Below, piece by piece: positions 12,000-43,360 of a DNA stretch of 57,122 nt. Within the stretch, counting starts at the first letter, position 1. Each line of letters starts with the position of its first letter. This DNA is from a virus, in the IMG/VR virus record IMGVR_UViG_3300005537_000315, positions 1 through 57,122 of that record; one strand, 5' to 3'. A program made the position numbers and the translations under genes. The notes under the pieces were generated by a model. The model was not told the origin of the DNA. It did not search any database and saw nothing but the letters and a program-made list of their open reading frames with translations.

Positions 12000-12556
12000 A
12001 AACAGATCCTTTTGAGAAAGTCGCTAACTAACTTATCGCACGTTTCGGGAAAAAAGTTTTTAAAGAAGCGCAATCGTTGCCCTGGAGTGAGCTTCGAGAT
12101 CATGCCTTCCGCATGATTGCACGACGGATGACAAAAACCAAAAACGTAGCCTGTCTTGTGATCGTGATGAAGATGTGGGGTTCTCTTTGTTTTCCAGTCC
12201 AGCACTCCTCCGCAACCTACACAGAACTTACTCGTTTTCATAAGATGCAAAAGTTTTTCCGGTGATATGTTCGGTATAACGTGCCCTCTTCGCTTTGCCT
12301 GTGTGTTAAACAACAGCAGCCTATTTTTCGCGAAACTAAAAGGCAAACATTTAAAACACCACACGCGACGAATGCCGTGTGCGCAAATGCTGCCGCCACC
12401 GCAGTCTTTGCATCCGCTTCTTTGCTTTTTGTGCTGGCACGTTTGGCTTCCGCCGCACTCAACGCATTGAATTTTTATTTTCTTATGTTCACAAGTTGCA
12501 GAGCCGCCACATTCGACACAGCGGCTCTTTCTTCTACCGTGCTTGCATTCACTCAT
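11996..12556 (-). CDS. HNH endonuclease inserted within the DNA polymerase gene
   Basis: 186 residues from the ATG at 12556 (MSECKHGRRKSRC), with GGGAG upstream. Tandem knuckles CxxCGGSxTCxHKK repeat three times, a nucleic-acid-binding array. The nuclease core is CVGCGGVLDWKTKRTPHLHH followed by DHKTGYVFGFCHPSCNHA. It overlaps the polymerase N-terminal gene by 8 bases and the C-terminal gene by 4, so there is no room for an intron. This is intronless homing that splits the host gene, as known for MobE-type insertions in T4-like phages. Confidence 0.9.
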   Translation of the reverse strand: MSECKHGRRKSRCVECGGSATCEHKKIKIQCVECGGSQTCQHKKQRSGCKDCGGGSICAHGIRRVWCFKCLPFSFAKNRLLLFNTQAKRRGHVIPNISPEKLLHLMKTSKFCVGCGGVLDWKTKRTPHLHHDHKTGYVFGFCHPSCNHAEGMISKLTPGQRLRFFKNFFPETCDKLVSDFLKRICL

Positions 12557-13790
12557 GCTGTGCACTCCCAGGAGCGACGAAAACCGTTCTGATTACAGAT
12601 TTAATCACTTCAAGAACGTTTCCATACTTTTCAACAATTCCTTGGTAGTCTCTTCTGTAAATCAATCTGCGTGCATCTTTAAGGGTGTCTATGTCTTCAA
12701 AATCAGCGCCTTTAACCTTTTTTGGTTGAGAAGGCCGAGGCATATTGTGCAATTGAACGGATGATCCTGACCATCGTCCGCATCTACTGCTGCCTAGATA
12801 TATAAATTGATTTCTTAAACGCCCATCGGGACATAAATGTCTCTTTACGGCATCAAGTTTGGTGTAGCTGGTTGATCCAGCCGACAACCTCTCTTCTAGA
12901 ACCGCTCGGCATTCCGGTGTCATCGTGTACTGTATGTCGCCTAGAGCGGCTTCGACGAACGCTTTATTCAGCGTGTTGTACGGATAACCACGACTGCGTA
13001 CCCACGGTAATAGTTGATCACGAGAGTTTGAATTTTCCAAACCTGTGATGGCGTTTTGTTTTTCTAACGCGATACGTTTCGCTTCCGTCGCGATCCACAA
13101 CGCGGCTTCGACAAACTCAAGATCAACAGGCATGCCTCGATCATTAACGTTTTGATCGAACAACCACACGCGACGCTCAAAATCAGACATCGGCCACGCT
13201 TGCAGAATTTCTTCGCGGCGAAGCAGTTCTTCCTCGGCATCCACGTCTCGCATGCAATACGCGCCAAATTGCGACCACTCCGCAGGATGAGAATTCCAAT
13301 CGTTGAAATATGTGCGAGGGTCGGGATTTTTCTTGGTTTTCTTTTCGACTATGGGTTCACAGAAGAGATTAATGAGGGCTGCGCCGCGCTTATCTTTGGC
13401 TAGGTGCACGGGAACGTCTAGGATAGAGCACATCGACTCCAAGTCAGGAGGCAAGCACAAATAGCGGCCCGCCACCTGGGGGTCGATGAATCTATCCGGG
13501 GCAATCTTTTTGCCTAGCTGAAACCATAGAACATAGCGCTCGAACGCGCTGTTAAACGCTTCGATCTGCACGTTCGGATCGTCCAGAGCGTCGTTAAGGT
13601 CTTTAGGCATCGGGCCTTCATGCGGCATCCACAAACGACGACACGGCCCTGTGTCGCCTGGGAGTTTGTAGCCCTGCATCAAAACCGAGGTGGTCGGGTG
13701 CGTCATATAATTAAATAAGCCGACACCCGTGCTGCCGCCGATTAAGACGTGGCTACGTGTTTCGAAGTCCGTTTTAAGAACTTGAGTCAT
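12549..13790 (-). CDS. Family A DNA polymerase, N-terminal part (3'-5' exonuclease and thumb)
   Basis: 413 residues. The N-terminus KTDFETRS is exonuclease motif I (DxE), EAFNSAFERYVL resembles motif II, and YCMRDVDAEEEL carries the YxxxD motif III. Then come the thumb and palm start, with LGSSRCGRWSGSSVQLHNMP (the RxxSxxPNxQN-like stretch of Pol I) and VIKSVIRTVFVAPGSAQHE at the end. In uninterrupted polymerases FxAPxG is followed at once by motif A, which here begins the separate gene at 10905-11999. Its start overlaps the primase gene by 17 bases. Confidence 0.9.
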   Translation of the reverse strand: MTQVLKTDFETRSHVLIGGSTGVGLFNYMTHPTTSVLMQGYKLPGDTGPCRRLWMPHEGPMPKDLNDALDDPNVQIEAFNSAFERYVLWFQLGKKIAPDRFIDPQVAGRYLCLPPDLESMCSILDVPVHLAKDKRGAALINLFCEPIVEKKTKKNPDPRTYFNDWNSHPAEWSQFGAYCMRDVDAEEELLRREEILQAWPMSDFERRVWLFDQNVNDRGMPVDLEFVEAALWIATEAKRIALEKQNAITGLENSNSRDQLLPWVRSRGYPYNTLNKAFVEAALGDIQYTMTPECRAVLEERLSAGSTSYTKLDAVKRHLCPDGRLRNQFIYLGSSRCGRWSGSSVQLHNMPRPSQPKKVKGADFEDIDTLKDARRLIYRRDYQGIVEKYGNVLEVIKSVIRTVFVAPGSAQHE

Positions 13791-16620: not shown

Positions 16621-17091
16621 TTATTTCTCCTTTTTAAGTCTTTCGACTTTTAGTTTTAGTCCTTCGACTTGTCTTTCGAGTCCTTTGATTCGGTGTTTTT
16701 GTCTCCCTAAAATCTTAATCAGTTGTTGATACGTTTGATTTCTTGGAGATGTCCACACTAAATTGCCAGGAACGAAACCTTTTTTGTGATCAATAACGTG
16801 TAGTGTACTTCCAGTTGGCCTTCTTCCTAAATTTGCTATTATCCAATCAGCACCAGCTTTTAAAGACCCGTTCTTCTTTGGATTCCAGCCATCGAAAAAA
16901 GGCATGCCTTTGTAGTTTCTGTTTTTAGGGTTTTTCTTATCAAAAATCCTATGGTAGTGTCCCTGAACCGAAGTGTGCTCTATGTTCTTTTCTCGCCATT
17001 TGGCTTTATACAGTTTTCTCTCTTCTTTGTGCTCTTCGTAATATTTACGGGCTTGTTTTCTCCTCTTAATCAGATGCCCTCTTTTAGTCAC
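16621..17091 (-). CDS. HNH endonuclease (free-standing)
   Basis: 156 residues, very basic. LHVIDHKKGFVPGNLVWTSP (about residues 98-117) is a compact HNH core with DH, a later Asn and no zinc knuckles, so it is of a different type from its neighbours. N-terminal KKRRKQARKYYEEHKEE-like basic helices and a C-terminal Leu/Lys heptad coiled coil flank it. It starts 8 bases inside the exonuclease gene end and ends one base before the SSB-like gene. Confidence 0.75.
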   Translation of the reverse strand: MTKRGHLIKRRKQARKYYEEHKEERKLYKAKWREKNIEHTSVQGHYHRIFDKKNPKNRNYKGMPFFDGWNPKKNGSLKAGADWIIANLGRRPTGSTLHVIDHKKGFVPGNLVWTSPRNQTYQQLIKILGRQKHRIKGLERQVEGLKLKVERLKKEK

Positions 17092-17833
17092 GTAGGTTCT
17101 CCAGCAGAAAATCCTTCGTGATAGAGATGTCGAACGGCACGCTGGATTTCAGCTTGTCGAAGTCGCACTCTTTCACGCCCTGCCACCACACACGAAAGTC
17201 TGGATTCCAGCGGAAACCCGCTTTCTTCGCGACTTTGTTTGTGGCCTTGCTATTCGCTTGATGACTCAAGACAACGAATGTCGGAGATATAGCTCGCGCC
17301 ATAATTCCGTCAAGGTCGTGCCAGAGAATCAATCGAAGCACCGCTTTGGTGTCATCGAGGGCGCAATGCTTGTCGTAAGTGAAGCTTACGTCTCGACCTG
17401 TTTTGGGGTCTCGCGCGTTGGCACACATTTTGACGAGGGCCTCCCCTTTGACGCCGGGAATGTCCGTCATCGTGTCAACGCCGATTTTCTCAGGCAGAGC
17501 GAGGCCGAGGCGCTTGGCGGTGTTCCTTAAAAGAGGAAGGTCGAACCACGTTATATTGTGACCTATCACCGCGTCGGCTGCGCTAAAATATTCGGCACAT
17601 GCCTCAACCGCGTCTGTCTGAGTGTACCCAAATCTATTCACCATATCTTGATCAATCCTGCTAATCTCGGCGGCCTCGCCTTCAATCACCTTGTCGGTGT
17701 CGGTCACCAAGAAGCTGGTTTGCTCAAGAATTCGTTCGCGTCCTGTTGAATACAGCGCCAACCCGACTTCGCGAATACGATCTTCGTTCGGGTTAGTTCC
17801 GGTCGATTCAAAATCGAAGGACGCTAAAATCAT
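17084..17833 (-). CDS. DnaQ-like (DEDD) 3'-5' exonuclease
   Basis: 249 residues. Exo I is ASFDFESTGTNPNEDRIREVG (catalytic Asp-Glu at residues 7-9). Exo II is GHNITWFDLPLL (about residue 92). Exo III is HCALDDTKAVLRL (about residue 156), giving DEDDh. The C-terminal 70 residues (VVLSHQANSKATNKVAKKAGF) are a separate small domain also found in other exonucleases. A stand-alone proofreading or end-trimming exonuclease beside the replication genes. ATGA overlap with the next gene upstream. Confidence 0.9.
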   Translation of the reverse strand: MILASFDFESTGTNPNEDRIREVGLALYSTGRERILEQTSFLVTDTDKVIEGEAAEISRIDQDMVNRFGYTQTDAVEACAEYFSAADAVIGHNITWFDLPLLRNTAKRLGLALPEKIGVDTMTDIPGVKGEALVKMCANARDPKTGRDVSFTYDKHCALDDTKAVLRLILWHDLDGIMARAISPTFVVLSHQANSKATNKVAKKAGFRWNPDFRVWWQGVKECDFDKLKSSVPFDISITKDFLLENLRD

Positions 17834-24867: not shown

Positions 24868-25286
24868 TTAAATAATCCCCTGCCCGTAATCCGGCGAAGT
24901 CGTGAAGTTGTCAACGTAATCCTTAGACTCCTTTAAACCCATCGCCGTAGCCGCACGGCTTTTATGGCGTTGATTTTATTTCCCGTCGCCAATTCGCGGG
25001 CAACAATTTCGTTAACCTCTCGGCGGTTGGCACGGTTCTTCAAAGCGTACGCGAGACGATCAAATCCCACGGCAACAATTTCGTTAACCTCTTGACGGTT
25101 GGCAAGGTTCTTCAAAGCGTACGCGAGACGATCAAATCCCACGGCGTCATTTTCAAAAGCCTTGGCAAGATACCGCGAGGCAACTTGATTAGCGACACTC
25201 CTGTATTCTTCCGCCGCAGCTTCTACGGCGAGAAGCAATTCATCGCGTTCCTGCTTGGTGATCTTTAGTGTAAAAAGTTTGTCCAT
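24868..25286 (-). pseudogene. L7/L12 C-terminal-domain-like protein with tandem duplication and frameshift
   Basis: The frame from 25286 reads MDKLFTLKITKQERDELLLA through two 24-residue copies of AVGFDRLAYALKN(L/R)ANR, then TGNKINAIKAVR, and stops at 24933. One missing base near 24948-24953 (GG for GGG is enough) restores TAMGLKESKDYVDNF and a TAA at 24868, directly before the next ATG. GNKINAIKAVR..TxMGLKESKDYVD closely resembles the C-terminal domain of ribosomal protein L7/L12, which recruits translation factors. This domain also occurs on small phage proteins. Confidence 0.65.
25001..25144 (-). repeat. Tandem 72-bp duplication inside a gene
   Basis: Two adjacent 72-bp copies (25001-25072 and 25073-25144), each beginning CAACAATTTCGTTAACCTCT on the plus strand, differing at only a few bases. 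The unit encodes 24 residues in frame. Confidence 0.95.
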
Positions 25287-26669: not shown

Positions 26670-26903
26670 CTAGGACTCTAGCTCTGTCATCGCTTCAAAC
26701 GTTCGTACTAGGTCTGAAACATCAGCCTCGGGTAACTCATCTACGGTCGGCCACATTTCAGGTTTAGTACTGGTAATCACCTGAATCATTTTGTCGATTC
26801 TATCCATTGGTATCCTTTGCATTTCTAAATTTTGTCGAGCCTCCTGCCGCCTGGGCAAATACTGCCTGGGGTGTGGATTTTTGCGTCCTGGGCCTTCAGT
26901 CAT
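26670..26903 (-). CDS. Small hypothetical protein
   Basis: 77 residues from 26903, but the better-supported start is the ATG at 26807 (MDRIDKMIQVITSTKPEMWP, 45 residues), which has AAAGGA at correct spacing. The longer N-terminus is Pro/Arg-rich and may be part of the 3' end of the structured RNA upstream. The C-terminus is acidic and helical. No family. Confidence 0.5.
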   Translation of the reverse strand: MTEGPGRKNPHPRQYLPRRQEARQNLEMQRIPMDRIDKMIQVITSTKPEMWPTVDELPEADVSDLVRTFEAMTELES

Positions 26904-26904: not shown

Positions 26905-27403
26905 CTGCCTACCTTTCGAGTAGGCCACCTAGCTCCCCTTCACCTTCGCAGGTCGTTTCTAAGGCAGTGATAACGGCTCGGTCGAACCCTTTGCCCTGAT
27001 TCACGCTGGCTCACAGCCCGTGTTCCCATTGTGACGACTGTGCATTTCTGCCTTTTGCGTCACGGGTAACGTTTTCTCGGGTGACATGCCTCTGCGCTCA
27101 GTCGCCGTGGTTCTCTACTACTTCCGACGAACTCACATCGAGTGTGAGCGCTTGCCGGAAAATCGGTTTTGGTGAGTAGCCCGAGGTAGGCGCGGATGAG
27201 TCGCCTCGTTCTCAGTGTTATGCTCCCCCCGCCAGGATTCGAACCTAGGTCTTCCGCGTAGTGTTTGCAAGTGTCTAGGGCACTTTGGTGAAGACCTAGA
27301 AGCTTCACCGCATCACGTACGGACGTTCTAAACCGCTAAACTACGGGGGGCCAGTTTGAATGGCTCCCTAACACTCCTGAGCCACTCACCAAAACCAATT
27401 TAC
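26905..27403 (-). ncRNA. Large structured RNA with embedded tRNA-like domain
   Basis: About 500 bases without convincing ORFs, directly behind a strong promoter. Helices seen in transcript order: outer 13-bp stem (27384-27396 with 27165-27177, GGTTTTGGTGAGT paired with ACTCACCAAAACC), extended by wobble pairs; AGTGTTA with TAACACT (27369-27375 with 27214-27220); a tRNA-like cloverleaf at 27225-27350; then TTCCG...CGGAA enclosing CTCACA-CTCGA-TGTGAG; an 8-bp GGCGACTG/CAGTCGTC stem enclosing GTCAC/GTGAC; CACG-GGCT-GTG-AGCC-CGTG; and GCCTAC-TCGAAAG-GTAGGC. Known analogues by style are the phage-borne GOLLD and ROOL RNAs, large ornate RNAs often next to or containing tRNAs. Membership is not shown. 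The 3' end is uncertain. Confidence 0.75.
27225..27350 (-). ncRNA. tRNA-like domain with kissing hairpins in the anticodon arm
   Basis: Acceptor stem CCCCCCG/CGGGGGG; D arm GTTT...GAAC; T arm CTAGG-TTCGAAT-CCTGG, all canonical; discriminator A followed by GCA rather than CCA. The anticodon stem TCCGT/GCGGA opens not into 7 bases but into 61, holding two hairpins: GGTGAAG/CTTCACC with loop CTTCTAGGT (27287-27309) and AAGTG/CACTT with loop CCCTAGA (27269-27285). TCTAGG and CCTAGA in the loops are perfectly complementary, so a 6-bp loop-loop contact is expected. There is no usable anticodon, so it is not a decoding tRNA unless an intron is removed. Confidence 0.8.
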
Positions 27404-27409: not shown

Positions 27410-27438
27410 AGCTTACATGAAACACAAAACCTTGTCAA
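27410..27438 (-). promoter_or_regulatory. Strong sigma70-like promoter for the structured RNA
   Basis: TTGACA (27433-27438), 17 bp, TAAGCT (27410-27415). The predicted start, about 27403, is seven bases before the outer helix of the RNA. The -35 box overlaps the stop of the 27435-27587 gene. Confidence 0.85.
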
Positions 27439-30805: not shown

Positions 30806-30904
30806 GAGTTTTTTGACGTTATTGTCGGTGATTCGCGGTGAACACGGTGACGAACGAGGAGTACTACACAGAGAAAACAGCCAACACGAGCGCACGCCAA
30901 GTTA

Positions 30905-31160
30905 ACCATAATCTGAGCATATTTAATAACTCTTTTATTATCATATAGTTACAAGATAAAACATAAGTTGGACATACAGAAATAGGACAAAACGAACAAT
31001 TAAAGACTCTGCGTGTAGTACGTCTCGTTCATCACCGCGACCACCGACAATCACCGTCAATCGCTACTAAAACGAAGTGTCACCAATTGTTTGGTGTTCG
31101 CTATTTATTCTCTGCACCAAAGTTTTGGTGGTGTCAAGATTGACACAGTGTCACACTAGC
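30905..31160. other. AT-rich stretch and hairpin cluster, origin candidate
   Basis: 30905-31010 is clearly AT-rich (for example TTTAATAACTCTTTTATTAT). It is followed by closely set palindromes: CACCAA-TTGT-TTGGTG (31081-31096), CACCAAA-GT-TTTGGTG (31117-31132), GTGTCAA-GA-TTGACAC and TGACAC-A-GTGTCA (31133-31153). No ORF with support. Typical ingredients of a replication origin; not proven. Confidence 0.5.
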
Positions 31161-31165
31161 GATCC

Positions 31166-31285
31166 TGAGACAGCCGAAAAGCGAGCGTATCAGATTGAGA
31201 CGATGAGATTTGAGACGTCTTACGAGCTTGAGACACAGACTAGTCGACTTGAGACGTCACGTCAGGACGCGACAAATAGTGAGAC
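31166..31285. repeat. Six TGAGAC direct repeats (iteron-like)
   Basis: Exact TGAGAC at 31166, 31196, 31211, 31229, 31250 and 31280, all in the same orientation, most preceded by T or C. The spacings of 30, 15, 18, 21 and 30 bases are irregular. The same hexamer is the half-site of the four palindromes further right. Confidence 0.8.
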
Positions 31286-31880
31286 AAGCACGTAACTCCA
31301 ACAAAATAAAGGGTATATAAGTTTCGTGAATTGGAAACAAGGCAACGGGTCATCCAGGCGAGAGGTGCGCGAGTGCAATAATTACACAAAATCACGCAAT
31401 AATTTTCGCTTTTTGTTCTACGATGGAGAATAATTAGTTCTCCAGCGCTTCGCAAACCCGCGCAAGTTGTTGATTCGGCGTGAGTTAAGCTTCGCAATCG
31501 TATTCTGCAACGCGCAACGCAGGCAGCAACCGATCCGCGCTGAGGTCGCGCAACGCAACGAGGCGAACCTTGGGCGAAGCAATTGCTGTTGAAAACAAAG
31601 GAGTTAGCCTTTGGTCGTTCAGTTGCTCCCCTAGCAATTCGGTCGCCAAAGTTCAATGGGGCCGGGGGGTGGCGGGTCGTACCCGCCCCCGACGCCTTGA
31701 GGCTCAGGCCGACGTCGACGTGGCTCACCCGCACCTTTCCCTAACAGTGACCGTCACGCCAGAAGTCCCCTGTTATCAACTATTTAAAATCGGTGCCATG
31801 CTTCATCTGTTTTAGTGGAGGGCTACAACCCTCCTGGCAGTACTGCGACCTCCCTGTCGATACCAACGCAAACTCGCAAA
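31286..31880. other. Intergenic region without supported genes
   Basis: Holds GGAGAA-TAATTAG-TTCTCC (about 31424-31443), a strong GC hairpin GGCGGGT-CGT-ACCCGCC (31672-31688), GGAGGG-CTACAA-CCCTCC (31817-31834) and a third, inverted copy of the repeat around the 23-kb HNH gene (31789-31815). ORFs here on both strands show no coding character. Confidence 0.5.
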
Positions 31881-31886
31881 TGCCTC

Positions 31887-32027
31887 GTCTCAAAATGAGA
31901 TGAGAAACAGGGATTTCTCGACACAGGCCAGTCGTACTCGCCCCAGGGGCGTCTCATTGTGAGACGACCTCAACGTGGCTCATCTCAATCTGAGACGGGT
32001 GGGACACGTCACGTCTCAAAATGAGAC
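31887..32027. promoter_or_regulatory. Four operator-like palindromes GTCTCA-N3-TGAGAC
   Basis: Copies at 31887-31901, 31951-31965, 31982-31996 and 32013-32027. Two are perfect, two have one changed base. The last three are spaced 31 bases apart, three helical turns, which suits cooperative binding of a dimeric repressor just ahead of the first right-arm gene at 32066. Confidence 0.8.
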
Positions 32028-32065
32028 AGTAGTCTCGTGGTGAATCAAAGAATAGGTGTCTACAA

Positions 32066-35851: not shown

Positions 35852-35928
35852 GGCGGATGAGGCGAAACAGGTGACGCGCTCGACTGTGAATCGGGCTAGA
35901 GTGGGTTCGAGTCCCATCGTCCGCCCCA
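35852..35928 (+). tRNA. tRNA-His (GTG)
   Basis: Acceptor GCGGATG/CGTCCGC with extra G-1 opposite discriminator C, the identity pair of tRNA-His. Anticodon loop CTGTGAA. T loop TTCGAGT. CCA encoded. First gene of the array. Confidence 0.95.
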
Positions 35929-35950
35929 AAACATTTTTGAAGAAAGCTCT

Positions 35951-35979
35951 TGACAGAATTCCAAATCCATGATAGGCTT
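35951..35979 (+). promoter_or_regulatory. Sigma70-like promoter
   Basis: TTGACA (35951-35956), 17 bp, TAGGCT (35974-35979), upstream of the 36002 gene and the following tRNAs. Confidence 0.75.
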
Positions 35980-36001
35980 CTTTTGAGAGTGAGGGCTGCT
36001 C

Positions 36002-36148
36002 ATGAAAAAGATTGCAGTCACGGATTCGTTGAAAGACCTGAAGTTGAAGGTCGGTGATAAAGTGGAGTTGTTCAAGAGGGTCTGGCAGTACGGCGAAACG
36101 ACCGATAAGAACGGCAAGGTCTCATCGCGCTATCTCGACCCGCTCTAA
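36002..36148 (+). CDS. Small hypothetical protein
   Basis: 48 residues: MKKIAVTDSLKDLKLKVGDK, VELFKRVWQYGETTDKNGKV, SSRYLDPL. Basic, probably a small beta barrel. Own promoter just upstream. Between two tRNA loci. Function unknown. Confidence 0.6.
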   Translation: MKKIAVTDSLKDLKLKVGDKVELFKRVWQYGETTDKNGKVSSRYLDPL

Positions 36149-36154
36149 AGTTTT

Positions 36155-36211
36155 TACGAGTTCTCAACTGGCGGCCCTTGCTGGAGGTTTAAATCCTTCA
36201 ACCCCGACCAA
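36155..36211 (+). tRNA. tRNA relic
   Basis: A T arm (GGAGG-TTTAAAT-CCTTC) and a 3' end CCCCGACCA are recognisable, but the total length is under 60 bases and no anticodon arm can be folded. Looks like a deleted tRNA. Confidence 0.45.
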
Positions 36212-36215
36212 TTTT

Positions 36216-36353
36216 ATGATTTGTCAACGTTGTCATCAAGAAAAAGCAACAGTCGTGCCTCGTCTCAACCCGTACGATGAAGATGTACGTGGGGAACAGA
36301 ACGAAGAGATTCTTTGCGACGGATGCTACGACGCGTTGTGTGACGAGATTTAA
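36216..36353 (+). CDS. Small zinc-ribbon protein
   Basis: 45 residues: MICQRCHQEKATVVPRLNPY to EILCDGCYDALCDEI. Two CxxC pairs, CQRC and CDGC, form a zinc ribbon. No Shine-Dalgarno site: the ATG follows the CCA of the relic tRNA by four bases, so translation may depend on tRNA processing. Confidence 0.6.
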   Translation: MICQRCHQEKATVVPRLNPYDEDVRGEQNEEILCDGCYDALCDEI

Positions 36354-36354
36354 T

Positions 36355-36439
36355 CCGCTGCTGGTGGAACGGCAGACACGTCAGTCTTAGAAACTGATGC
36401 CCTTGTGGCGTGGGAGTTCGAATCTCTCGCGGCGGACCA
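36355..36439 (+). tRNA. tRNA-Leu (TAG)
   Basis: Acceptor CCGCTGC/GCGGCGG, anticodon stem TCAGT/ACTGA with loop CTTAGAA, long variable arm, T loop TTCGAAT, encoded CCA. Confidence 0.9.
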
Positions 36440-36445
36440 AGTTTT

Positions 36446-36531
36446 GCGCGTGTGGCGGAATGGCATACGCAGGGGACTTAAAACCCCCGGCCCGAAAGGG
36501 ATTGTGAGTTCGACTCTCGCCTAGCGCACCA
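36446..36531 (+). tRNA. tRNA-Leu (TAA)
   Basis: Loop CTTAAAA, long variable arm, T loop TTCGACT, encoded CCA. The acceptor stem GCGCGTG/CTAGCGC has two mismatches (positions 5-6), so it may be poorly functional. Confidence 0.8.
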
Positions 36532-36539
36532 AGTTTTAC

Positions 36540-36732
36540 GAGCGTGATTGGCAGACGTGCCAGTCCTCGGCCATCGACGGATGGTTTGAGTTTAAGCCCA
36601 GCACGCAACACTGGCTGGCAGATCAGACGGAGACCTTGGTTCGAATCCAAGTTGGTTCAATGAGCGTGGTCGGCCTTGCATGAGGCGCGTCTCGAACCTG
36701 TCGTCTAGAGGATAGGACGCCGTCAAAAATTT
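36540..36732 (+). tRNA. Cluster of degenerate tRNA fragments
   Basis: Contains GCGTG/CACGC acceptor-like ends with AACA instead of CCA (36543-36615), a T arm CTTGG-TTCGAAT-CCAAG without an anticodon arm (36635-36660), and a 5' half similar to tRNA-Glu (GTCTAGAGGATAGGACGCCG, about 36704-36723). None folds as a full tRNA. Confidence 0.5.
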
Positions 36733-36807
36733 AGCCCTGTCGTTCAACGGACAGGACACACGGCTTCTACCCGTGTAATCTCGGTTCGAATCCGAGTGGG
36801 GCTACCA
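36733..36807 (+). tRNA. tRNA-Arg (TCT)
   Basis: Acceptor AGCCCTG/TGGGGCT, stem CACGG/CCGTG with loop CTTCTAC, T loop TTCGAAT, CCA encoded. Confidence 0.9.
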
Positions 36808-36820
36808 ATCTTCCCGTGTC

Positions 36821-36966
36821 GTGGGATACGTCGGCACATATCATGATTCGCTACGCGTTGTTCCGTGGCGAGAGGAAACAGACTTTCTCGATCCGTCTCT
36901 TTGGAATCGCATATACGGATCGAACGACGCGATACGGCAACACGAAGAGCGCGTCGTTGGTTTTAA
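36821..36966 (+). pseudogene. Possible gene fragment between tRNAs
   Basis: GTG at 36821 opens a coding-like frame (MGYVGTYHDSLRVVPWREET, DFLDPSLWNRIYGSNDAIRQ) that runs into tRNA-Arg(ACG) and beyond. Probably a gene truncated by tRNA insertion. Family unknown. Confidence 0.4.
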
Positions 36967-36968
36967 GT

Positions 36969-37043
36969 GGACTGTTCGTTCAACGGATAGGATAGTGGTC
37001 TACGAAACCACGGATAGAGGTTCGAATCCTCTACGGTCTACCA
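36969..37043 (+). tRNA. tRNA-Arg (ACG)
   Basis: Acceptor GGACTGT/ACGGTCT, stem GTGGT/ACCAC with loop CTACGAA, T loop TTCGAAT, CCA encoded. A34 would need deamination to inosine by the host enzyme. Confidence 0.9.
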
Positions 37044-37049
37044 GATTTT

Positions 37050-37124
37050 GCACCTGTCGTTCAATGTACAGGACTCGGCCCTCCGAAGGCCGTGATCTGG
37101 GTTAGATTCCCAGTGGGTGCTCCA
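37050..37124 (+). tRNA. tRNA-Arg (CCG)
   Basis: Acceptor GCACCTG/TGGGTGC, stem CGGCC/GGCCG with loop CTCCGAA, CCA encoded. T loop is TTAGATT: the near-invariant C56 is A, which should weaken the elbow contact with G19. Confidence 0.85.
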
Positions 37125-37144
37125 GGTTTGATGCATCAAGGGAA

Positions 37145-37186
37145 GGGATGCCCTAACACCCCAACCCACTCTTTAGGGAGAGTGAG
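37145..37186 (+). promoter_or_regulatory. Kissing-loop leader of HNH gene (element A)
   Basis: First loop CCCTAA (37151-37156) is complementary to TTAGGG (37173-37178), the loop of CACTCT/AGAGTG (37167-37184), which carries the GGGAG ribosome site. The first stem is weak in this copy. The ATG follows at 37187. Confidence 0.7.
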
Positions 37187-37567
37187 ATGAAAATCTGTAG
37201 TCGATGTATTTTGTCGAAACACGAGAAAGATTTTTATACCCAAAGCGGCAGGTCGACAAAAATGTCTTGGTGTAAGGCCTGTTTGAAAGATTACAGGTCT
37301 GAGACTCAACTCGCTAATAAAAAGAGGGCAGTTGAATTATTGGGTGGGAAATGCGTTCGCTGTGGGTATTCGAAATGTTTGGGTGCCTTAGAATTTCATC
37401 ACGTAAACCCAGCAGACAAGTCCACGTACACGGGACTTAAAAACAGAAGTTGGAACACGATATCGGAAGAAATTAAAAAGTGTATTCTTCTATGTGCTAA
37501 TTGTCACAGAGAAGAGGAAGAGAAATTAAGGCCACGTAGCGCAGCGGACAGCGCAACTCTTTCCTAA
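37187..37567 (+). CDS. HNH endonuclease
   Basis: 126 residues. CSRCILSKHEKDFYTQSGRS with CKAC is an N-terminal knuckle. The core is CVRCGYSKCLGALEFHHVNP (about residues 54-73) and CILLCANCHREEEEK (about 100-114), a standard HNH. The frame continues 38 bases into tRNA-Arg(CCT) and stops inside it, so the 3' end of the ORF uses tRNA sequence. Located between two tRNA-Arg genes. Confidence 0.85.
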   Translation: MKICSRCILSKHEKDFYTQSGRSTKMSWCKACLKDYRSETQLANKKRAVELLGGKCVRCGYSKCLGALEFHHVNPADKSTYTGLKNRSWNTISEEIKKCILLCANCHREEEEKLRPRSAADSATLS

Positions 37568-37605
37568 AGAGTGGGTCGTGAGTTCGAATCTCACCGAGGC
37601 CTCCA
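37530..37605 (+). tRNA. tRNA-Arg (CCT)
   Basis: Acceptor GGCCACG/CGAGGCC (one A-A mismatch), stem ACTCT/AGAGT with loop TTCCTAA, T loop TTCGAAT, CCA encoded. Overlaps the HNH ORF. Confidence 0.9.
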
Positions 37606-37611
37606 GATTTG

Positions 37612-37707
37612 AGCGGTGGGTAGCGAGTGGCTAACCAGTGATTCGGGCCGGAGTAGGGCGTGAAACTCGCCAACGTGTCGCGCAGCGGACAAGGCTCAGG
37701 CGCTCAA
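37612..37707 (+). ncRNA. tRNA-sized structured RNA or tRNA relic
   Basis: Ends pair as TTGAGCG/CGCTCAA over about 92 bases, but no T loop, no anticodon loop and no CCA can be identified. Could be a decayed Ser-type tRNA. Confidence 0.4.
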
Positions 37708-37718
37708 AAAGTTTACGT

Positions 37719-37805
37719 GCCTTTGTGGTGGAACAGGCAGACGCGCCGCACTCAAAACGCGGTGGGCTAACGCCCGTGTCAGTTCGAGTCTGACCAGAGG
37801 CACCA
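37719..37805 (+). tRNA. tRNA-Leu (CAA)
   Basis: Acceptor GCCTTTG/CAGAGGC, loop CTCAAAA on stem CCGCA/CGCGG (one A-C mismatch), long variable arm, T loop TTCGAGT, CCA encoded. Confidence 0.9.
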
Positions 37806-37811
37806 AAGTTT

Positions 37812-37886
37812 GCACAGATCGACAAGTGGCTAAGTCAATCGTCTGCAAAACGATTACCGTGAGTTCGAATCTCACTCTGTGCTCCA
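37812..37886 (+). tRNA. tRNA-Cys (GCA)
   Basis: Acceptor GCACAGA/TCTGTGC, stem ATCGT/ACGAT with loop CTGCAAA, T loop TTCGAAT, CCA encoded. Confidence 0.95.
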
Positions 37887-37889
37887 AGT

Positions 37890-38208
37890 TGGTTGTCCAG
37901 ATGTTCGCGAAGGTCCGATCCCTTCGAGGAAGTTCAGGACACGAGTCAACACCGTGCCGTGGAAGTTGCGGGACGCGTAAGCGTACGGGTAAGCCTCGGT
38001 AGTGGACTGGGTAACGCACTCGAAAGAGTCGAGCACCAGCACCACTCATTGGAGCCGAGACAATCCACACGAGTGCAACTGCAAATAGGCGCAGAGGACT
38101 TTGTTGGCGTTCAGTGACAGCGCGGGTAGCAGGCTTCGCCTTCGGGCGACTAGAGAGGAATGAACGTCACCGCGTAAGCGGAAACAGAATCCTGGCTACG
38201 GACGACCA
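37890..38208 (+). ncRNA. rnpB: RNase P RNA
   Basis: About 319 bases. The two ends pair perfectly as helix P1 (TGGTTGTCC at 37890 with GGACGACCA at 38200). Universally conserved pieces occur in the right order: GAGGAAGTTCAGGAC (CR-I, cf. GAGGAAAGUCC of E. coli), GGGTAA repeats, GCAAATAGGCG (cf. CCAAAUAGG), GCGGGTAGCAGGC (cf. CCGGGUAGGCUGC), TAGAGAGGAATGAACG (cf. UAGAUGAAUGAC) and AAACAGAATCCTGGCTA (CR-V, cf. GACAGAACCCGGCUUA). It lies inside the tRNA array in the same orientation, which fits 5' processing of the phage tRNAs, presumably with the host protein subunit. Confidence 0.88.
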
Positions 38209-38213
38209 AAGTG

Positions 38214-38582
38214 ATGGGCAAGAAAGAAGATCAAGCTAAGTGGTATAGAAACCACCGAGAAAAGCACATGGAAAACTGTGCTGCTCGAAAAGCAGAACAG
38301 ATTGTTCGAAATCAGCAAATGATTATCGACTATTTGTTGCAGCATCCTTGCCTCGATTGTGGTGAAACAGATATAATGGTTCTTCAATTTGACCACGTTC
38401 GCGGAGAGAAGAGAGACGACATGAGTCGTTTGCTTTCGTTCTCAGAGAAAACGGTTCGTGAAGAAATTGAGAAATGTGAAGTACGTTGTGCTAATTGTCA
38501 TCAAAGAAAGACGGCAGAACGAAAACAAAGCTATAAGGTTCTATGGGTCGCAGGTGTTAGCGGCAACATTCCTCCCTCTTAA
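38214..38582 (+). CDS. HNH endonuclease
   Basis: 122 residues from the ATG at 38214 (GTG at 38211 also possible), five bases after RNase P RNA and without a clear ribosome site. HPCLDCGETDIMVLQFDHVR (about residues 45-64) and KCEVRCANCHQRKTAE (about 84-99) give the HNH core. The frame ends 38 bases inside tRNA-Lys(CTT), the same arrangement as the HNH at 37187. Confidence 0.85.
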   Translation: MGKKEDQAKWYRNHREKHMENCAARKAEQIVRNQQMIIDYLLQHPCLDCGETDIMVLQFDHVRGEKRDDMSRLLSFSEKTVREEIEKCEVRCANCHQRKTAERKQSYKVLWVAGVSGNIPPS

Positions 38583-38620
38583 GGAGCGAGTTCCGAGTTC
38601 AAGTCTCGGGCAACCCACCA
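38545..38620 (+). tRNA. tRNA-Lys (CTT)
   Basis: Acceptor GGGTCGC/GCAACCC (one mismatch), anticodon loop CTCTTAA, T arm CCGAG-TTCAAGT-CTCGG, CCA encoded. Overlaps the HNH ORF. Confidence 0.85.
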
Positions 38621-38680
38621 AGTTTTGTCAACTTATAGGTTGACGTTTGACAACTGTTTGTCAACTTATAAGTGTACAGT

Positions 38681-38755
38681 GGGCTGCGGATGCGAGCGGC
38701 AGCAATGGGGCCTTTTAAGCCCAATGTCCGAGTTCGAGCCTCGGGCGGCCCACCA
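38681..38755 (+). tRNA. tRNA-Lys (TTT)
   Basis: Acceptor GGGCTGC/GCGGCCC, loop CTTTTAA, T loop TTCGAGC, CCA encoded. Preceded by a short repeat, TGTCAACTTATA twice. Confidence 0.9.
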
Positions 38756-38763
38756 AAAGTTTT

Positions 38764-38839
38764 AGCCGACTAGCAAACTGGTCGTATGCGCCTCTCCTAC
38801 AAAGAGGTGGGCACGGTTCGATTCCGTGGTTGGCTACCA
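38764..38839 (+). tRNA. tRNA-Val (TAC)
   Basis: Acceptor AGCCGAC/GTTGGCT, stem CCTCT/AGAGG with loop CCTACAA, T loop TTCGATT, CCA encoded. Confidence 0.95.
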
Positions 38840-38844
38840 AGTTC

Positions 38845-38926
38845 TGTGGGAAGAGTGACGGGATGTCCCAGATCGTATGCTGGGGTGCTGCCCCGTAATG
38901 GGTAACCATCCCCCGTCTTCTCAGCC
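38845..38926 (+). ncRNA. Structured RNA in the tRNA array
   Basis: Outer stem pairs GAAGA and ACGGGATG with CATCCC and GTCTTC; inner hairpins CCCAG-ATCGTATG-CTGGG and ATGG-GTAA-CCAT (GNRA-like loop). tRNA-sized but no T loop, anticodon or CCA. Function unknown. Confidence 0.45.
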
Positions 38927-38929
38927 TTT

Positions 38930-39019
38930 AGTCGGTAGCATGGGTATGCAGCGCGGCCTTATAAACCGCGAGCACCCGATTAGTGCGCCGAGTCGGTTCG
39001 AGTCCGACACCGACTACCA
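38930..39019 (+). tRNA. Class II tRNA with apparent anticodon TAT
   Basis: Acceptor AGTCGGT/ACCGACT, D stem GCA/TGC, anticodon loop CTTATAA on CGCGG/CCGCG, long variable arm GCAC-CCGATTA-GTGC, T loop TTCGAGT, CCA encoded. UAU would read the Ile codon AUA, yet the long variable arm is typical of Leu, Ser or Tyr tRNAs, so the charged amino acid is uncertain. Confidence 0.8.
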
Positions 39020-39026
39020 AGTTTGT

Positions 39027-39100
39027 GGGGTTATCGTTTAGTGGCAGGACGCTCGGTTCTCAGCCGAATAGCCGGGGTTCGAATCCCCGTAGCCCTACCA
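39027..39100 (+). tRNA. tRNA-Glu (CTC)
   Basis: Acceptor GGGGTTA/TAGCCCT, loop TTCTCAG, T loop TTCGAAT, CCA encoded. Confidence 0.9.
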
Positions 39101-39109
39101 AGTTTCAGC

Positions 39110-39185
39110 GGAGTTATCAGCTAGCGGCCTAGGCTGCCACCCTTTCAAGGTGGTCACATCGGTTCGAATCCGATTAGCTCTGCCA
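39110..39185 (+). tRNA. tRNA-Glu (TTC)
   Basis: Acceptor GGAGTTA/TAGCTCT, discriminator G, stem CCACC/GGTGG with loop CTTTCAA, T loop TTCGAAT, CCA encoded. Confidence 0.9.
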
Positions 39186-39200
39186 ATTTTAGGAGTGAAC

Positions 39201-39296
39201 ATGAGCGGACAGCTTGCAGTTATTTTCGGAGCGATTGCCGCAGCGGTGGCACTCGTGGTATACTTGCTGAACAAGTACGTGACGAAGAGCAAGTAA
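39201..39296 (+). CDS. Membrane peptide
   Basis: 31 residues: MSGQLAVIFGAIAAAVALVV and YLLNKYVTKSK, one transmembrane helix with a basic tail. AGGAG precedes the ATG. Coupled to the next gene by TAATG. Confidence 0.65.
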   Translation: MSGQLAVIFGAIAAAVALVVYLLNKYVTKSK

Positions 39297-39442
39297 TGAG
39301 TTTTCAAGATTGGTTAGAGAAGCATCCGAAGATTCAAAACGTTGTTGAGTTTTTTGTTTTCATCGCGGAAGTGACCGCGTCGCCGTTCATCGACTTGTAT
39401 AATCGAGTCGCCGTGAAGTTCGGCTGGAAGGTCTATCAGTAA
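39296..39442 (+). CDS. Small amphipathic protein
   Basis: 48 residues: MSFQDWLEKHPKIQNVVEFF, VFIAEVTASPFIDLYNRVAV, KFGWKVYQ. Aromatic and amphipathic, possibly membrane associated with the 31-residue peptide before it. Confidence 0.6.
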   Translation: MSFQDWLEKHPKIQNVVEFFVFIAEVTASPFIDLYNRVAVKFGWKVYQ

Positions 39443-39452
39443 AAGTTTTCGT

Positions 39453-39528
39453 GGGCAGTTAGTAGCAACTGGGAAAACGCCTCGCTTGCACCGAGGAGTT
39501 GAGGGTTCGAATCCGTCACCGTCCACCA
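39453..39528 (+). tRNA. tRNA-Ala (TGC)
   Basis: Acceptor GGGCAGT/ACCGTCC (one mismatch), stem CCTCG/CGAGG with loop CTTGCAC, T loop TTCGAAT, CCA encoded. The first position lacks the G3-U70 pattern except as G3-T70 in the stem, consistent with Ala. Confidence 0.85.
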
Positions 39529-39538
39529 AATTTTATGT

Positions 39539-39612
39539 AGTCGGTTCGTTCAACGGTAGGACCGTTGCCTGATTAGCGACTGATGAGGGTTCGATTCCTT
39601 CACCGACTACCA
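39539..39612 (+). tRNA. tRNA-Ile (GAT)
   Basis: Acceptor AGTCGGT/ACCGACT, stem GTTGC/GCGAC with loop CTGATTA, T loop TTCGATT, CCA encoded. Confidence 0.92.
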
Positions 39613-39629
39613 AGTTTTTAGGAGAAGAG

Positions 39630-39830
39630 ATGGCCGCAAATTCAAACATTCCAGCAGTGAACGCAAAGAATCTTGCGCTGTCAAACGATACGGCGCTGGA
39701 TGTGAAAGCGATTGAATTGGAAGATACGGAGATCGTGAAGGCATTGGTGGCTAACCCGAATCGCCCTGACGCTGGAAAGCTGAACGCAAGACGCGGCTCG
39801 ATAGCAACGGCCAAAAAGAATCACGAATAA
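39630..39830 (+). CDS. Small hypothetical protein
   Basis: 66 residues: MAANSNIPAVNAKNLALSND to RRGSIATAKKNHE. AGGAGA precedes the ATG. Ala/Asn-rich, helical. No family recognised. Confidence 0.6.
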   Translation: MAANSNIPAVNAKNLALSNDTALDVKAIELEDTEIVKALVANPNRPDAGKLNARRGSIATAKKNHE

Positions 39831-39843
39831 GAAAGATTTTAAT

Positions 39844-39921
39844 TGCGGGTTAGCACTTCTGGTGAAGTCACCTGTCTCATAAGCAGGTCTAGGCTGGGTT
39901 CGATTCCCGCATCCGCAACCA
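39844..39921 (+). tRNA. tRNA-Met (CAT)
   Basis: Acceptor TGCGGGT/ATCCGCA, stem CCTGT/GCAGG with loop CTCATAA, T loop TTCGATT, CCA encoded. The T1-A72 pair excludes an initiator; Ile2 (lysidine) cannot be excluded. Confidence 0.88.
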
Positions 39922-40096
39922 TCTTGACACATCGGTTTCGCTGGTGAGACGCTAAGGTCGTCGACGACCAAGCTGGCGAGACTTTATCGGTTGAAGCGCG
40001 GGTTGCTTATAACAATCTGGGCATTCATAGCCTGACCAGCCCTCATTGAAAAGGCGTTCGGTTCGAAACGTTTTCCTTGGGGAATACAGTTTTTGA
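39922..40096 (+). other. Non-coding stretch in the tRNA array
   Basis: Contains a perfect 14-base palindrome, GGTCGTCGACGACC (39957-39970), and a T-arm-like CGGTTCGAAACG near 40057. No complete tRNA or supported ORF. Confidence 0.4.
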
Positions 40097-40170
40097 GCGG
40101 GTGTGGTGTAACGGTAGCACCTCATTATTCCAAGTTGAGTGTCGGGGTTCGAGTCCCCGTACCCGCTCCA
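40097..40170 (+). tRNA. tRNA-Gly (TCC)
   Basis: Acceptor GCGGGTG/TACCCGC, loop ATTCCAA on a stem with one T-T mismatch, T loop TTCGAGT, CCA encoded. Confidence 0.88.
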
Positions 40171-40257
40171 AGTTCGAACGCACACGTTCCTTGCCGTCGT
40201 ACGGCGGTTGTGTGGTAACCAGTTGAAGAGGACGATAACACTGGTGTAAATTTCTGA

Positions 40258-40331
40258 GCGAGTTTGGCGTAGTGGTAGCGTGGAACCTTGCCAAGGTTCA
40301 GGCGCGGTTTCGATTACCGCAATTCGCTCCA
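40258..40331 (+). tRNA. tRNA-Gly (GCC)
   Basis: Acceptor GCGAGTT/AATTCGC, stem GAACC/GGTTC with loop TTGCCAA, T loop TTCGATT, CCA encoded. Confidence 0.93.
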
Positions 40332-40339
40332 AGTTTTGA

Positions 40340-40415
40340 GCATGGTTCGTCTAGCGGTTTAGGACATCCGGCTTGTACCCGGAGAACGTAAGTTCGAATC
40401 TTACACTTTGCTCCA
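40340..40415 (+). tRNA. tRNA-Thr (TGT)
   Basis: Acceptor GCATGGT/ACTTTGC (one mismatch), stem TCCGG/CCGGA with loop CTTGTAC, T loop TTCGAAT, CCA encoded. Confidence 0.9.
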
Positions 40416-40423
40416 AGGTTTAT

Positions 40424-40672
40424 ATGCCCAACGAATTTCTTTACTCCATAGCCCATAAGGCTCGTAAAGGCCCAAAGATAACGATGGGCAAAGGCATGCA
40501 GAGAGTTGAAACGCCTGACCCGATGCGCGGCGTGACTGATCCAGCGAAGTTGTTGAAGTCGGACACCCAGCGCATAGATAGGAACGTCGGCACTCCTGAT
40601 TTGATGTGGCAGAGGTCTCCCGCGACAGGGTCTTCGTCCGATGCAGCGGGACTGGAAATAAAAAAGATTTGA
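40424..40672 (+). CDS. Hypothetical protein between tRNA-Thr genes
   Basis: 82 residues: MPNEFLYSIAHKARKGPKIT, then PDPMRGVTDPAKLLKSDTQR and a flexible end. Starts nine bases after a CCA without a ribosome site; its TGA is directly followed by tRNA-Thr(CGT). No family. Confidence 0.6.
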   Translation: MPNEFLYSIAHKARKGPKITMGKGMQRVETPDPMRGVTDPAKLLKSDTQRIDRNVGTPDLMWQRSPATGSSSDAAGLEIKKI

Positions 40673-40746
40673 GCACTGTTGATCTAATGGCATGATGCGG
40701 CCCTCGTAGCGCCGACGCCGTGGTTCGATTCCACGACGGTGCTCCA
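40673..40746 (+). tRNA. tRNA-Thr (CGT)
   Basis: Acceptor GCACTGT/ACGGTGC, loop CTCGTAG on CGGCC/CGCCG (one mismatch), T loop TTCGATT, CCA encoded. Confidence 0.88.
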
Positions 40747-40753
40747 AGTTTGA

Positions 40754-40827
40754 GCAGGGATGATGTAATGGTAGCCTAGTTCCTTGGTAAGGAACCTGTC
40801 CGGGTTCGAGTCCCGGTTTCTGCTCCA
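40754..40827 (+). tRNA. tRNA-Thr (GGT)
   Basis: Acceptor GCAGGGA/TTTCTGC, stem GTTCC/GGAAC with loop TTGGTAA, T loop TTCGAGT, CCA encoded. Confidence 0.93.
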
Positions 40828-40835
40828 AATTTTAC

Positions 40836-40923
40836 GGAGAGGTTCGGTAGCGGCAAACTAGGCAGGCTGTAACCCTGCCGTCCCTTGCGGACTTCCAAGG
40901 TTCGAGTCCTTGTCTCTCCACCA
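40836..40923 (+). tRNA. tRNA-Tyr (GTA)
   Basis: Acceptor GGAGAGG/TCTCTCC, stem GCAGG/CCTGC with loop CTGTAAC, long variable arm, T loop TTCGAGT, CCA encoded. Confidence 0.95.
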
Positions 40924-40931
40924 GTTTCTAC

Positions 40932-41047
40932 GGGGGTGTGTGAGTAGCTCTCACATCCGTAGCGAGCAGAGTGCGACGCGATCTCGGCAGAGATCGAACG
41001 GCACGTAACGATCTGACTGCACGATGCGGATTGCTGCATCCCCACCG
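40932..41047 (+). ncRNA. tRNA-like structured RNA with CCG end
   Basis: Ends pair as GGGGGTG/CATCCCC followed by ACCG, like an acceptor stem with an altered CCA. Inside are TGTGAG-TAGCT-CTCACA and GATCTC-GGCA-GAGATC and a longer GTGC/GCAC helix, 116 bases in all. There is no T loop or anticodon. It may be a tRNA relic with an insertion or a separate small RNA. Confidence 0.5.
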
Positions 41048-41061
41048 ATTTAGTTTTCTGT

Positions 41062-41136
41062 TGTAGGTTCGTCTAACGGTAAGACGGGGCACTGTTAATG
41101 CCTACGATGAAGGTTCGAATCCTTTGCCTACAGCCA
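41062..41136 (+). tRNA. tRNA-Asn (GTT), copy 1
   Basis: Acceptor TGTAGGT/GCCTACA, discriminator G, stem GGGCA/TGCCT with loop CTGTTAA, T loop TTCGAAT, CCA encoded. Confidence 0.93.
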
Positions 41137-41145
41137 ATTTTCTTT

Positions 41146-41220
41146 TCACGATTAGCTCCAACGTAGAGCGGCTCCCTGTTAAGGAGAAGGTTCTTGGTTC
41201 AAGTCCAAGATCGTGAGCCA
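41146..41220 (+). tRNA. tRNA-Asn (GTT), copy 2
   Basis: Acceptor TCACGAT/ATCGTGA, discriminator G, loop CTGTTAA, T arm TCTTGG-TTCAAGT-CCAAGA, CCA encoded. Body unlike copy 1, so of separate origin. Confidence 0.88.
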
Positions 41221-41228
41221 TTTTCAGC

Positions 41229-41304
41229 AGGGAAGTCGTATAGCGGCCATTACGTACGTCTCCAAAACGTTAAGACGGGAGTTCGAGTCTCTCCTCCCCT
41301 GCCA
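41229..41304 (+). tRNA. tRNA-Trp (CCA)
   Basis: Acceptor AGGGAAG/CTCCCCT (one mismatch), discriminator G, loop CTCCAAA, T loop TTCGAGT, CCA encoded. Confidence 0.9.
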
Positions 41305-41324
41305 TTTTGAACGTTCAATTGGGT

Positions 41325-41367
41325 GGGCGACGCCGACACGTCGCCCCTCGCCTTGTCGGAGGCCGAG
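41325..41367 (+). promoter_or_regulatory. Kissing-loop leader of HNH gene (element E)
   Basis: GGGCGACG/CGTCGCCC with loop CCGACA (41333-41338); second hairpin 41347-41367 with loop TGTCGG (41354-41359), fully complementary. The GGAGG ribosome site lies in the second hairpin; ATG at 41368. Confidence 0.85.
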
Positions 41368-41793
41368 ATGAACCTGTGTCAAGTAGAAGGCTGCAATAGA
41401 GAAGTTGGTTTTCATTTAAGAAAGACCTGCTCCCAAGAGCACAAGGCCCTATACAGGCAGCAATTTGACCGTGGGCGATATGCTCGGCTGAGAGATAAAG
41501 TCTTAGAACACTACGGCAAAAAGTGCGTTTGTTGCGGTGAGACTAGAAAAGAATTTTTGGCTCTCGATCATAAAAATGGTGAAGGTCAAAAACATAGAAG
41601 AGAGTTAGGTGGCGGTGCCTTTAGAATGTATCGATGGGCGGTCAGAAACGGCTATCCTGATACATTTCAAATTCTTTGCCATAATTGTAATATGGCACTT
41701 GGATGTTGTGGCTATTGTCCGCATCAAAAAGAAAAGACCGAACAGAGGGCTTCTACAGAAGGCGGTCATTCGGACGGTAGTGCTCTGAACTGA
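41368..41793 (+). CDS. HNH endonuclease
   Basis: 141 residues from the ATG at 41368 (MNLCQVEGCNREVGFHLRKT). The core is CVCCGETRKEFLALDHKNGE (about residues 53-72) and ILCHNCNMALGCCGYCPHQK (about 108-127). The C-terminal block matches the minus-strand HNH at 10463, so the two are paralogues. Lies between tRNA-Trp and the serine protease, with its own kissing-loop leader. Confidence 0.9.
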   Translation: MNLCQVEGCNREVGFHLRKTCSQEHKALYRQQFDRGRYARLRDKVLEHYGKKCVCCGETRKEFLALDHKNGEGQKHRRELGGGAFRMYRWAVRNGYPDTFQILCHNCNMALGCCGYCPHQKEKTEQRASTEGGHSDGSALN

Positions 41794-41814
41794 GCCGTTC
41801 GTAAAGGTGCCCTT

Positions 41815-42651: not shown

Positions 42652-42835
42652 TTATCGTGAGATGAGAAAGTGGCGCAGGCTAGCGATTGCGTCCTTCTTA
42701 GCGTTCTTGTTTACTGGCTTGGTCAGCATGTGGCAGAATCATGTGATTCAAGTTCAACGCAAACAGATATTCGAACTTTGGGACGCGTATCAAAGTGTTG
42801 CGCACGGTTGTGGCGACAAGAATTTTGTTCTATAA
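42644..42835 (+). CDS. Small membrane protein
   Basis: 63 residues from ATG at 42644: MSDYREMRKWRRLAIASFLA, FLFTGLVSMWQNHVIQVQRK, one transmembrane helix with a basic N-terminal side. Overlaps the protease stop by eight bases, so the two are probably linked. Function unknown. Confidence 0.65.
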   Translation: MSDYREMRKWRRLAIASFLAFLFTGLVSMWQNHVIQVQRKQIFELWDAYQSVAHGCGDKNFVL

Positions 42836-42839
42836 TTTT

Positions 42840-42926
42840 GGATCAGTGGCGAAATTGGTAGACGCAATAGTTTGCTAAACTATCAACCGAAAGGTTGTGG
42901 GGGTTCGAGTCCCTCCTGATCCGCCA
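42840..42926 (+). tRNA. tRNA-Ser (GCT)
   Basis: Acceptor GGATCAG/CTGATCC, discriminator G, stem ATAGT/ACTAT with loop TTGCTAA, long variable arm, T loop TTCGAGT, CCA encoded. Confidence 0.95.
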
Positions 42927-42930
42927 GTTT

Positions 42931-43021: not shown

Positions 43022-43032
43022 GTTTTGTGTTA

Positions 43033-43123: not shown

Positions 43124-43124
43124 T

Positions 43125-43198: not shown

Positions 43199-43201
43199 TT
43201 T

Positions 43202-43272: not shown

Positions 43273-43279
43273 TTTCTGT

Positions 43280-43355: not shown

Positions 43356-43360
43356 AGTTT

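Follow-up and report, generated by a model that had tools for sequence, protein, structure and literature searches.

A promoter-driven phage non-coding RNA with a tRNA-like core interrupted in its anticodon loop

Introduction

What kind of RNA would be made from a stretch of about 500 nt that has a promoter, a tRNA-like fold and no good ORF? The question is raised by the minus strand of a phage genome (27403-26905), where an earlier note had seen an ornate transcript built around a tRNA fold and had suggested a member of the GOLLD or ROOL families of large phage RNAs, or a new class. The analysis described here partly confirms that observation and partly supports its interpretation. It supports a non-coding RNA that is driven by a promoter and has a tRNA-like core; the element is real and unusual, and it is not a recognised member of GOLLD or ROOL.

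The phage genome and the promoter of the element

The window, i.e. the whole stretch of DNA that was analysed (57,122 nt), is a 57-kb record of a tailed phage which, judged from its proteins, is distant kin of the T5-like and roseophage-type phages. Among the proteins recognised are an A1 DNA-transfer protein, a deoxynucleotide phosphatase, a primase, a UvrD-like helicase, a terminase, a portal protein and a split DNA polymerase, the last seemingly distributed over ORFs 17084-17833, 12549-13790 and 10905-11999 (-) with other ORFs in between. No RNA-repair or tRNA-processing gene, and no RNA ligase of the RtcB or T4 type, was recognised among the phage proteins scanned. A 117-aa ORF (24933-25286) contains an internal in-frame tandem duplication of 72 bp (24999-25145). 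The phage also carries 32 ordinary tRNA genes on the plus strand (35853-43789), with isotypes for every amino acid except Asp and Pro. Where does the RNA element lie relative to this array? It is solitary, on the opposite strand, about 8.5 kb from the start of the array and among small early-type ORFs, near the place (~31-32 kb) where the GC skew changes sign. The stretch 30810-32030 contains this skew switch, an inverted repeat of 65 nt (75%; 30810-30874 / 31008-31072) and, at 31885-32027, repeated GTCTCAnnnTGAGAC-type palindromes; it is possibly an origin or operator region.

The promoter that had been read as TTGACA-17-TAAGCT is indeed present (Table 1) and places the predicted transcription start at about 27403. 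Is it a chance match? The pattern TTGAC[A/T]-16/18-TAnnnT has 11 sites in the window, that of the element among them, against 2.2 expected in random sequence, and many of the 11 stand directly upstream of tRNAs (e.g. tRNA-His) or small ORFs. The promoter of the RNA element belongs to the phage's own promoter set. Over 34 nt that include its -35 box, the sequence shares 91% identity with the A2 promoter of Vibrio phage Pontus, TTGACA-17-TATAAT, in which the -10 box is perfect. The TAAGCT of the element matches the sigma-70 consensus at only three of six positions. Two further minus-strand promoters, at 28985 and 29706, precede small ORFs and have a common upstream box, ATTCGTACCATTGACTTC, which suggests one regulator for both.

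Coding potential and distribution of the folding signal

Does the region encode a protein? Its codon usage is non-coding in all six frames (-0.23 to 0.02 bits per codon, compared with 0.26 to 0.35 for real genes), in line with the earlier view that there is no good ORF, and an 82-aa ORF inside it is ruled out as a gene by the same measure. The structure is distributed less evenly than had been thought. The 5' domain is more stable than its shuffles (z -3.0), whereas the 264 nt at 27143-26880 fold at z -0.16 (-81.0; shuffles -80.2) and z is -2.1 for all 522 nt together. The ornate fold described for ~500 nt thus holds for the first ~245 nt and not for the 3' half, and the claim that at least nine helices over this length are special is not borne out. 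Folding energy alone is weak evidence, because about 5% of ordinary 260-nt windows of the phage genome lie at z -3.1 or lower; the z value of the 5' domain is supporting evidence only. A complementarity of 8 nt between 27184-27191 and 26907-26914 was discarded, being at chance level for such a length.

No terminator was found between the element and the downstream ORF. This ORF matched no family; in its 77-aa form it has a weak coding signal (0.005 bits per codon), and its second possible start, ATG 26807, has AAAGG ahead.

Table 1. Coordinates of the element, its neighbours and the gaps read in related loci
Feature	Position	Strand	Basis or remark
Promoter TTGACA-17-TAAGCT	27410..27438	-	Promoter-pattern scan; similarity to Pontus A2 promoter
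Clamp helix P1, 5' arm	27381..27401	-	Starts within ~2 nt of predicted start
Clamp helix P1, 3' arm	27160..27180	-	
Helix P2, 5' arm AGUGUUA	27369..27375	-	
Helix P2, 3' arm UAACACU	27214..27220	-	Directly behind tRNA 3' end
tRNA-like core, anticodon loop interrupted	27224..27350	-	Rfam tRNA; ARAGORN with introns allowed
Acceptor stem	27344-27350/27225-27231	-	
D arm	27325-27341	-	
Anticodon stem	27319-27323/27253-27257	-	
61-nt insert replacing anticodon loop	27258..27318	-	Predicted Y-shaped extension of anticodon stem
Insert hairpin H1, 7 bp, loop CUUCUAGGU	27287..27309	-	
Insert hairpin H2, 5 bp, loop CCCUAGA	27269..27285	-	
T arm	27232-27248	-	
Discriminator A	27224	-	Then GCA at 27223-27221 where CCA expected
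3' part	26905..27159	-	Non-coding by codon usage; folding signal no better than shuffles
Local hairpins in 3' part	27122-27160, 26907-26926	-	
Downstream ORF	26670..26903	-	77 aa from ATG 26903, or 45 aa from ATG 26807
Gaps in RcXuper, DSS3P8, DSS3_MAL1 loci	L005 3936-4796, L006 3085-4331, L007 3970-4862		

A tRNA-like core and what replaces its anticodon loop

The Rfam tRNA model (RF00005) matches 27350-27224 at 46.5 bits (E 8.5e-7; gathering cut-off 29). ARAGORN misses the core without introns and returns all four arms when introns are allowed, with 7 pairs in the acceptor stem, 4 in the D stem, 5 in the anticodon stem and 5 in the T stem. The T-loop is standard (TTCGAAT) and the D-loop reads AGCGGTTTA. 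The inner tRNA fold proposed before is upheld by these arms and this score; what had escaped attention is the interruption of its anticodon loop. Could such a molecule decode? A functional elongator tRNA has a 7-nt anticodon loop with U33 and a readable anticodon. The core instead carries 61 nt at the site of this loop (ARAGORN's split gives 54 nt), and no excision of the insert restores U33, since position 33 is always C by the ARAGORN split, by the fold and by inspection. The core ends in A-GCA, whereas all the other tRNAs of the window (32/32) have an encoded CCA at the 3' end; CCA could still be added after trimming. Because of the 61-nt loop replacement, the lack of U33 and the lack of an encoded CCA, the core is tRNA-derived yet not a decoding tRNA. 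From which tRNA might it come? Inspected by eye, the anticodon arm has a 3' half, ACGCGGAAGAC, that seems to resemble tRNA-Asp; this is no more than a lead. Phage records yielded no close tRNA relative, and in IMG/VR the T-arm/acceptor sequence of the core is unique.

With the cloverleaf held, the insert is predicted to prolong the anticodon stem into a three-way junction with two hairpins, whose loops are complementary (CUAGG in H1 and CCUAG in H2). This fold is calculated at -43.2 kcal/mol and the real insert beats 970 of 1000 shuffled inserts, and the insert is moderately more stable than its shuffles (z about -2). A 3% tail makes for a modest folding signal in these predictions. The free minimum lies 3.7 kcal/mol lower, at -46.9 kcal/mol (both energies omit the tertiary contacts of the tRNA elbow and the loop-loop pairing). 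There the insert pairs with the variable and T-stem region, which by calculation disrupts the anticodon and T stems of the core. Is the insert designed as a fold switch? This idea is not supported, as 771 of 1000 shuffled inserts have an equal or larger gap. The insert also holds a partly inverted copy of the tRNA's 3' half (27245-27263 vs 27281-27299, 15/19 nt).

The clamp around the core

The two arms of helix P1, 21 nt long and 90% complementary, form ~23 bp in the duplex fold, so that the outer stem reported earlier is present and its length, given as 13 bp, was understated. A second helix, P2, is located between this clamp and the core. How exceptional is it for a tRNA of this phage to be enclosed in this manner? 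The leader/trailer duplex of the element is calculated at -50.7 kcal/mol, compared with a mean of -23.3 kcal/mol (sd 5.1, best -32.3) for the 32 other tRNAs. On these modelled energies, the clamp is the strongest evidence for the element being more than a stray tRNA.

Relatives and known families

Does the element occur elsewhere? The sole relative found is contig IMGVR_UViG_3300027857_000042. It shows no difference over the region and one mismatch in a 12-kb stretch, and may be of the same population as the window phage. A DNA search of phages and plasmids with 11-base words returned the promoter similarity only. Scanning IMG/VR with five patterns (tRNA and 3' half) recovered the identical contig and otherwise chance matches in unrelated sequence, and among 84,980 genomes scanned for a tRNA carrying an insert of similar size there were chance combinations only. 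Loci of related phages were reached through the annealing-like protein, A1 and terminase, and the RNA was in none of them; the related terminases have 47-90% amino-acid identity, and their contigs are short or lack a match to the RNA. In RcXuper, DSS3P8 and DSS3_MAL1, the homologue of the annealing-like gene is preceded by ~0.9-1.2 kb of unannotated, non-coding DNA; when read, these gaps showed no similarity to the RNA. In another related locus, L003, a tRNA-Phe (5619-5691) immediately precedes the homologue of the 438-aa gene, and an apparent second, shortened tRNA-like sequence (~5808-5876) overlaps the start of that homologue; no clamp was found around the tRNA beside the homologous gene in this locus.

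Which known systems does the element resemble? In tmRNA, a large insert occupies the anticodon region of a tRNA-like domain, and the element is similar to it in its acceptor and T arms and in having a structured insert for the anticodon loop. It differs from tmRNA by its full D stem, and there was neither a tmRNA call by ARAGORN nor a tmRNA match in Rfam (gathering score; E <= 5). The insert matched no group I or other intron family in Rfam either (E <= 5).

The membership in GOLLD or ROOL that the earlier note had raised is not supported by the Rfam models. GOLLD (RF02032) gave no match at the gathering score, at E <= 5 with permissive filters or at E <= 10, in searches that lacked a strong positive control. 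ROOL (RF03087) gave none at the gathering score, E <= 5 or E <= 10; the control of the dedicated ROOL search matched nowhere, so this negative rests mainly on the Rfam scans (gathering, E <= 5). The comparison with GOLLD is sensible as an analogy, because some of these large phage-encoded non-coding RNAs bear phage tRNAs in their linker region (PMC12286853). GOLLD and ROOL, both phage-encoded, are also often found near phage tRNA islands (PMC12286853). Our element has its tRNA-like part in the 5' part of the RNA, but this tRNA is interrupted and non-decoding, the surrounding RNA has no GOLLD match, the element is shorter and its 3' part lacks a folding signal. From ROOL it is set apart by the absence of a model match. 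A third likeness is to phage tRNAs whose anticodon-loop changes evade tRNA-attacking defences, as described in PMC10264068 and PMC11555353. They too are phage-made with an altered anticodon loop; their loops, however, are described as carrying mutations (PMC10264068, PMC11555353), whereas here 61 structured nt have taken the place of the loop and a ~23-bp clamp encloses the tRNA.

How can the element be explained?

We tentatively favour, without calling it probable, a stable early phage non-coding RNA in which a captured tRNA has become a non-decoding tRNA mimic held in a clamp. Transcription would start at ~27403, early in infection to judge by the position of the element. The first ~20 nt would fold back onto 27160-27180, creating the ~23-bp clamp and closing a domain of ~245 nt. 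Inside the clamp, the tRNA fold would keep its elbow and acceptor arm intact, while the branched structured insert in place of the anticodon loop and the lack of an encoded CCA would prevent decoding. The cloverleaf would have to form in the cell and would stay in the precursor rather than being cut out. What could such a molecule be for? Its shape suggests that it could bait, or be a scaffold for, an enzyme that binds tRNAs, a candidate target being a tRNA-attacking host defence nuclease; alternatively, it may be a handle that stabilises the RNA. By analogy, the loop-altered phage tRNAs make the bait or scaffold role plausible (PMC10264068, PMC11555353). The element is not visibly decayed, because its four stems and the D-loop and T-loop consensus are intact; simple decay is at odds with the preserved stems and the clamp, and decoding with the missing anticodon loop, U33 and CCA. 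The reading also draws support from the significant tRNA homology, the folding of the insert as a prolonged anticodon arm, the lack of a coding signal and the solitary position on the strand opposite to the array. Several observations count against the mimic: the alternative fold lower by 3.7 kcal/mol, the modest signal of the insert, a -10 box with 3/6 matches, the lack of a homologue beyond the identical contig and the lack of a recognised RNA-repair or tRNA-processing gene among the proteins scanned.

Is the element instead a tRNA gene, perhaps Asp-like, recently disrupted by an insertion of 54-61 nt, that is, a pseudogene in which the inverted repeat is incidental or a relic? We regard this as somewhat unlikely. 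It would fit with the lack of U33 under any excision and of CCA, with a partly inverted 15/19-nt copy of the tRNA 3' half in the insert, as template switching could make, and with an otherwise nearly complete tRNA set in which Asp and Pro are absent. Yet the stems and invariant positions are all undecayed, the clamp is unmatched among the phage's other tRNAs, the element lies apart from the array under a promoter of its own and an identical copy exists in a second contig, though possibly from the same population.

Might the RNA be a long structured 5' leader that controls, for example through a cloverleaf/hairpin switch, the ORF starting at 26903/26807 and perhaps also the gene of the annealing protein that follows? 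Element and ORF share a strand, no terminator was found between them, ATG 26903 lies right next to the last hairpin (26907-26926) and the competing folds are only 3.7 kcal/mol apart. This reading is nonetheless improbable, as a separate promoter, at 26656, serves the larger downstream gene, the coding signal of the 77-aa ORF is weak and, by the shuffling given above, the alternative fold looks no more designed than it does with shuffled inserts.

An unrecognised large phage RNA family acting like GOLLD or ROOL, i.e. forming a homo-oligomeric RNA cage whose linker holds the tRNA, would suit a tRNA-like element in the 5' part of a non-coding unit, in a phage with 32 other tRNAs, and has precedents in the linker tRNAs of GOLLD and in the tRNA islands near both families (PMC12286853). 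Self-complementary CUAG in the loops of the insert could also pair between molecules. We nevertheless judge a cage decidedly improbable: neither model matches, GOLLD has a universally conserved 3' part whereas the 3' folding signal here is at z -0.16, and the element is shorter than many GOLLD members (>800 nt).

Finally, it is hardly credible that the RNA is the precursor of a working tRNA from which a genuine intron is spliced out, even though the insert sits at the anticodon loop, since 54-61 nt are too short for a self-splicing group I intron (whose catalytic core takes about 200 nt or more), no intron family matches, the promoters of the phage are bacterial and bacteria are not known to have a tRNA splicing endonuclease, no joining of the halves yields U33 by inspection, and neither type of RNA ligase was recognised among the proteins scanned.

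Implications

Does the element represent a new kind of RNA, in which a former tRNA gene supplies the core of a non-coding RNA with a long helical clamp, a Y-shaped module of two complementary loops stands in for the anticodon loop, and the whole acts as a non-decoding tRNA mimic? We consider this possible but doubtful. The reasons for the large tRNA sets of phages, and for the tRNAs inside some giant phage RNAs, are still debated. If the mimic were true, the element would be a natural test case for phage tRNA shapes serving as baits or structural modules, not as decoders.
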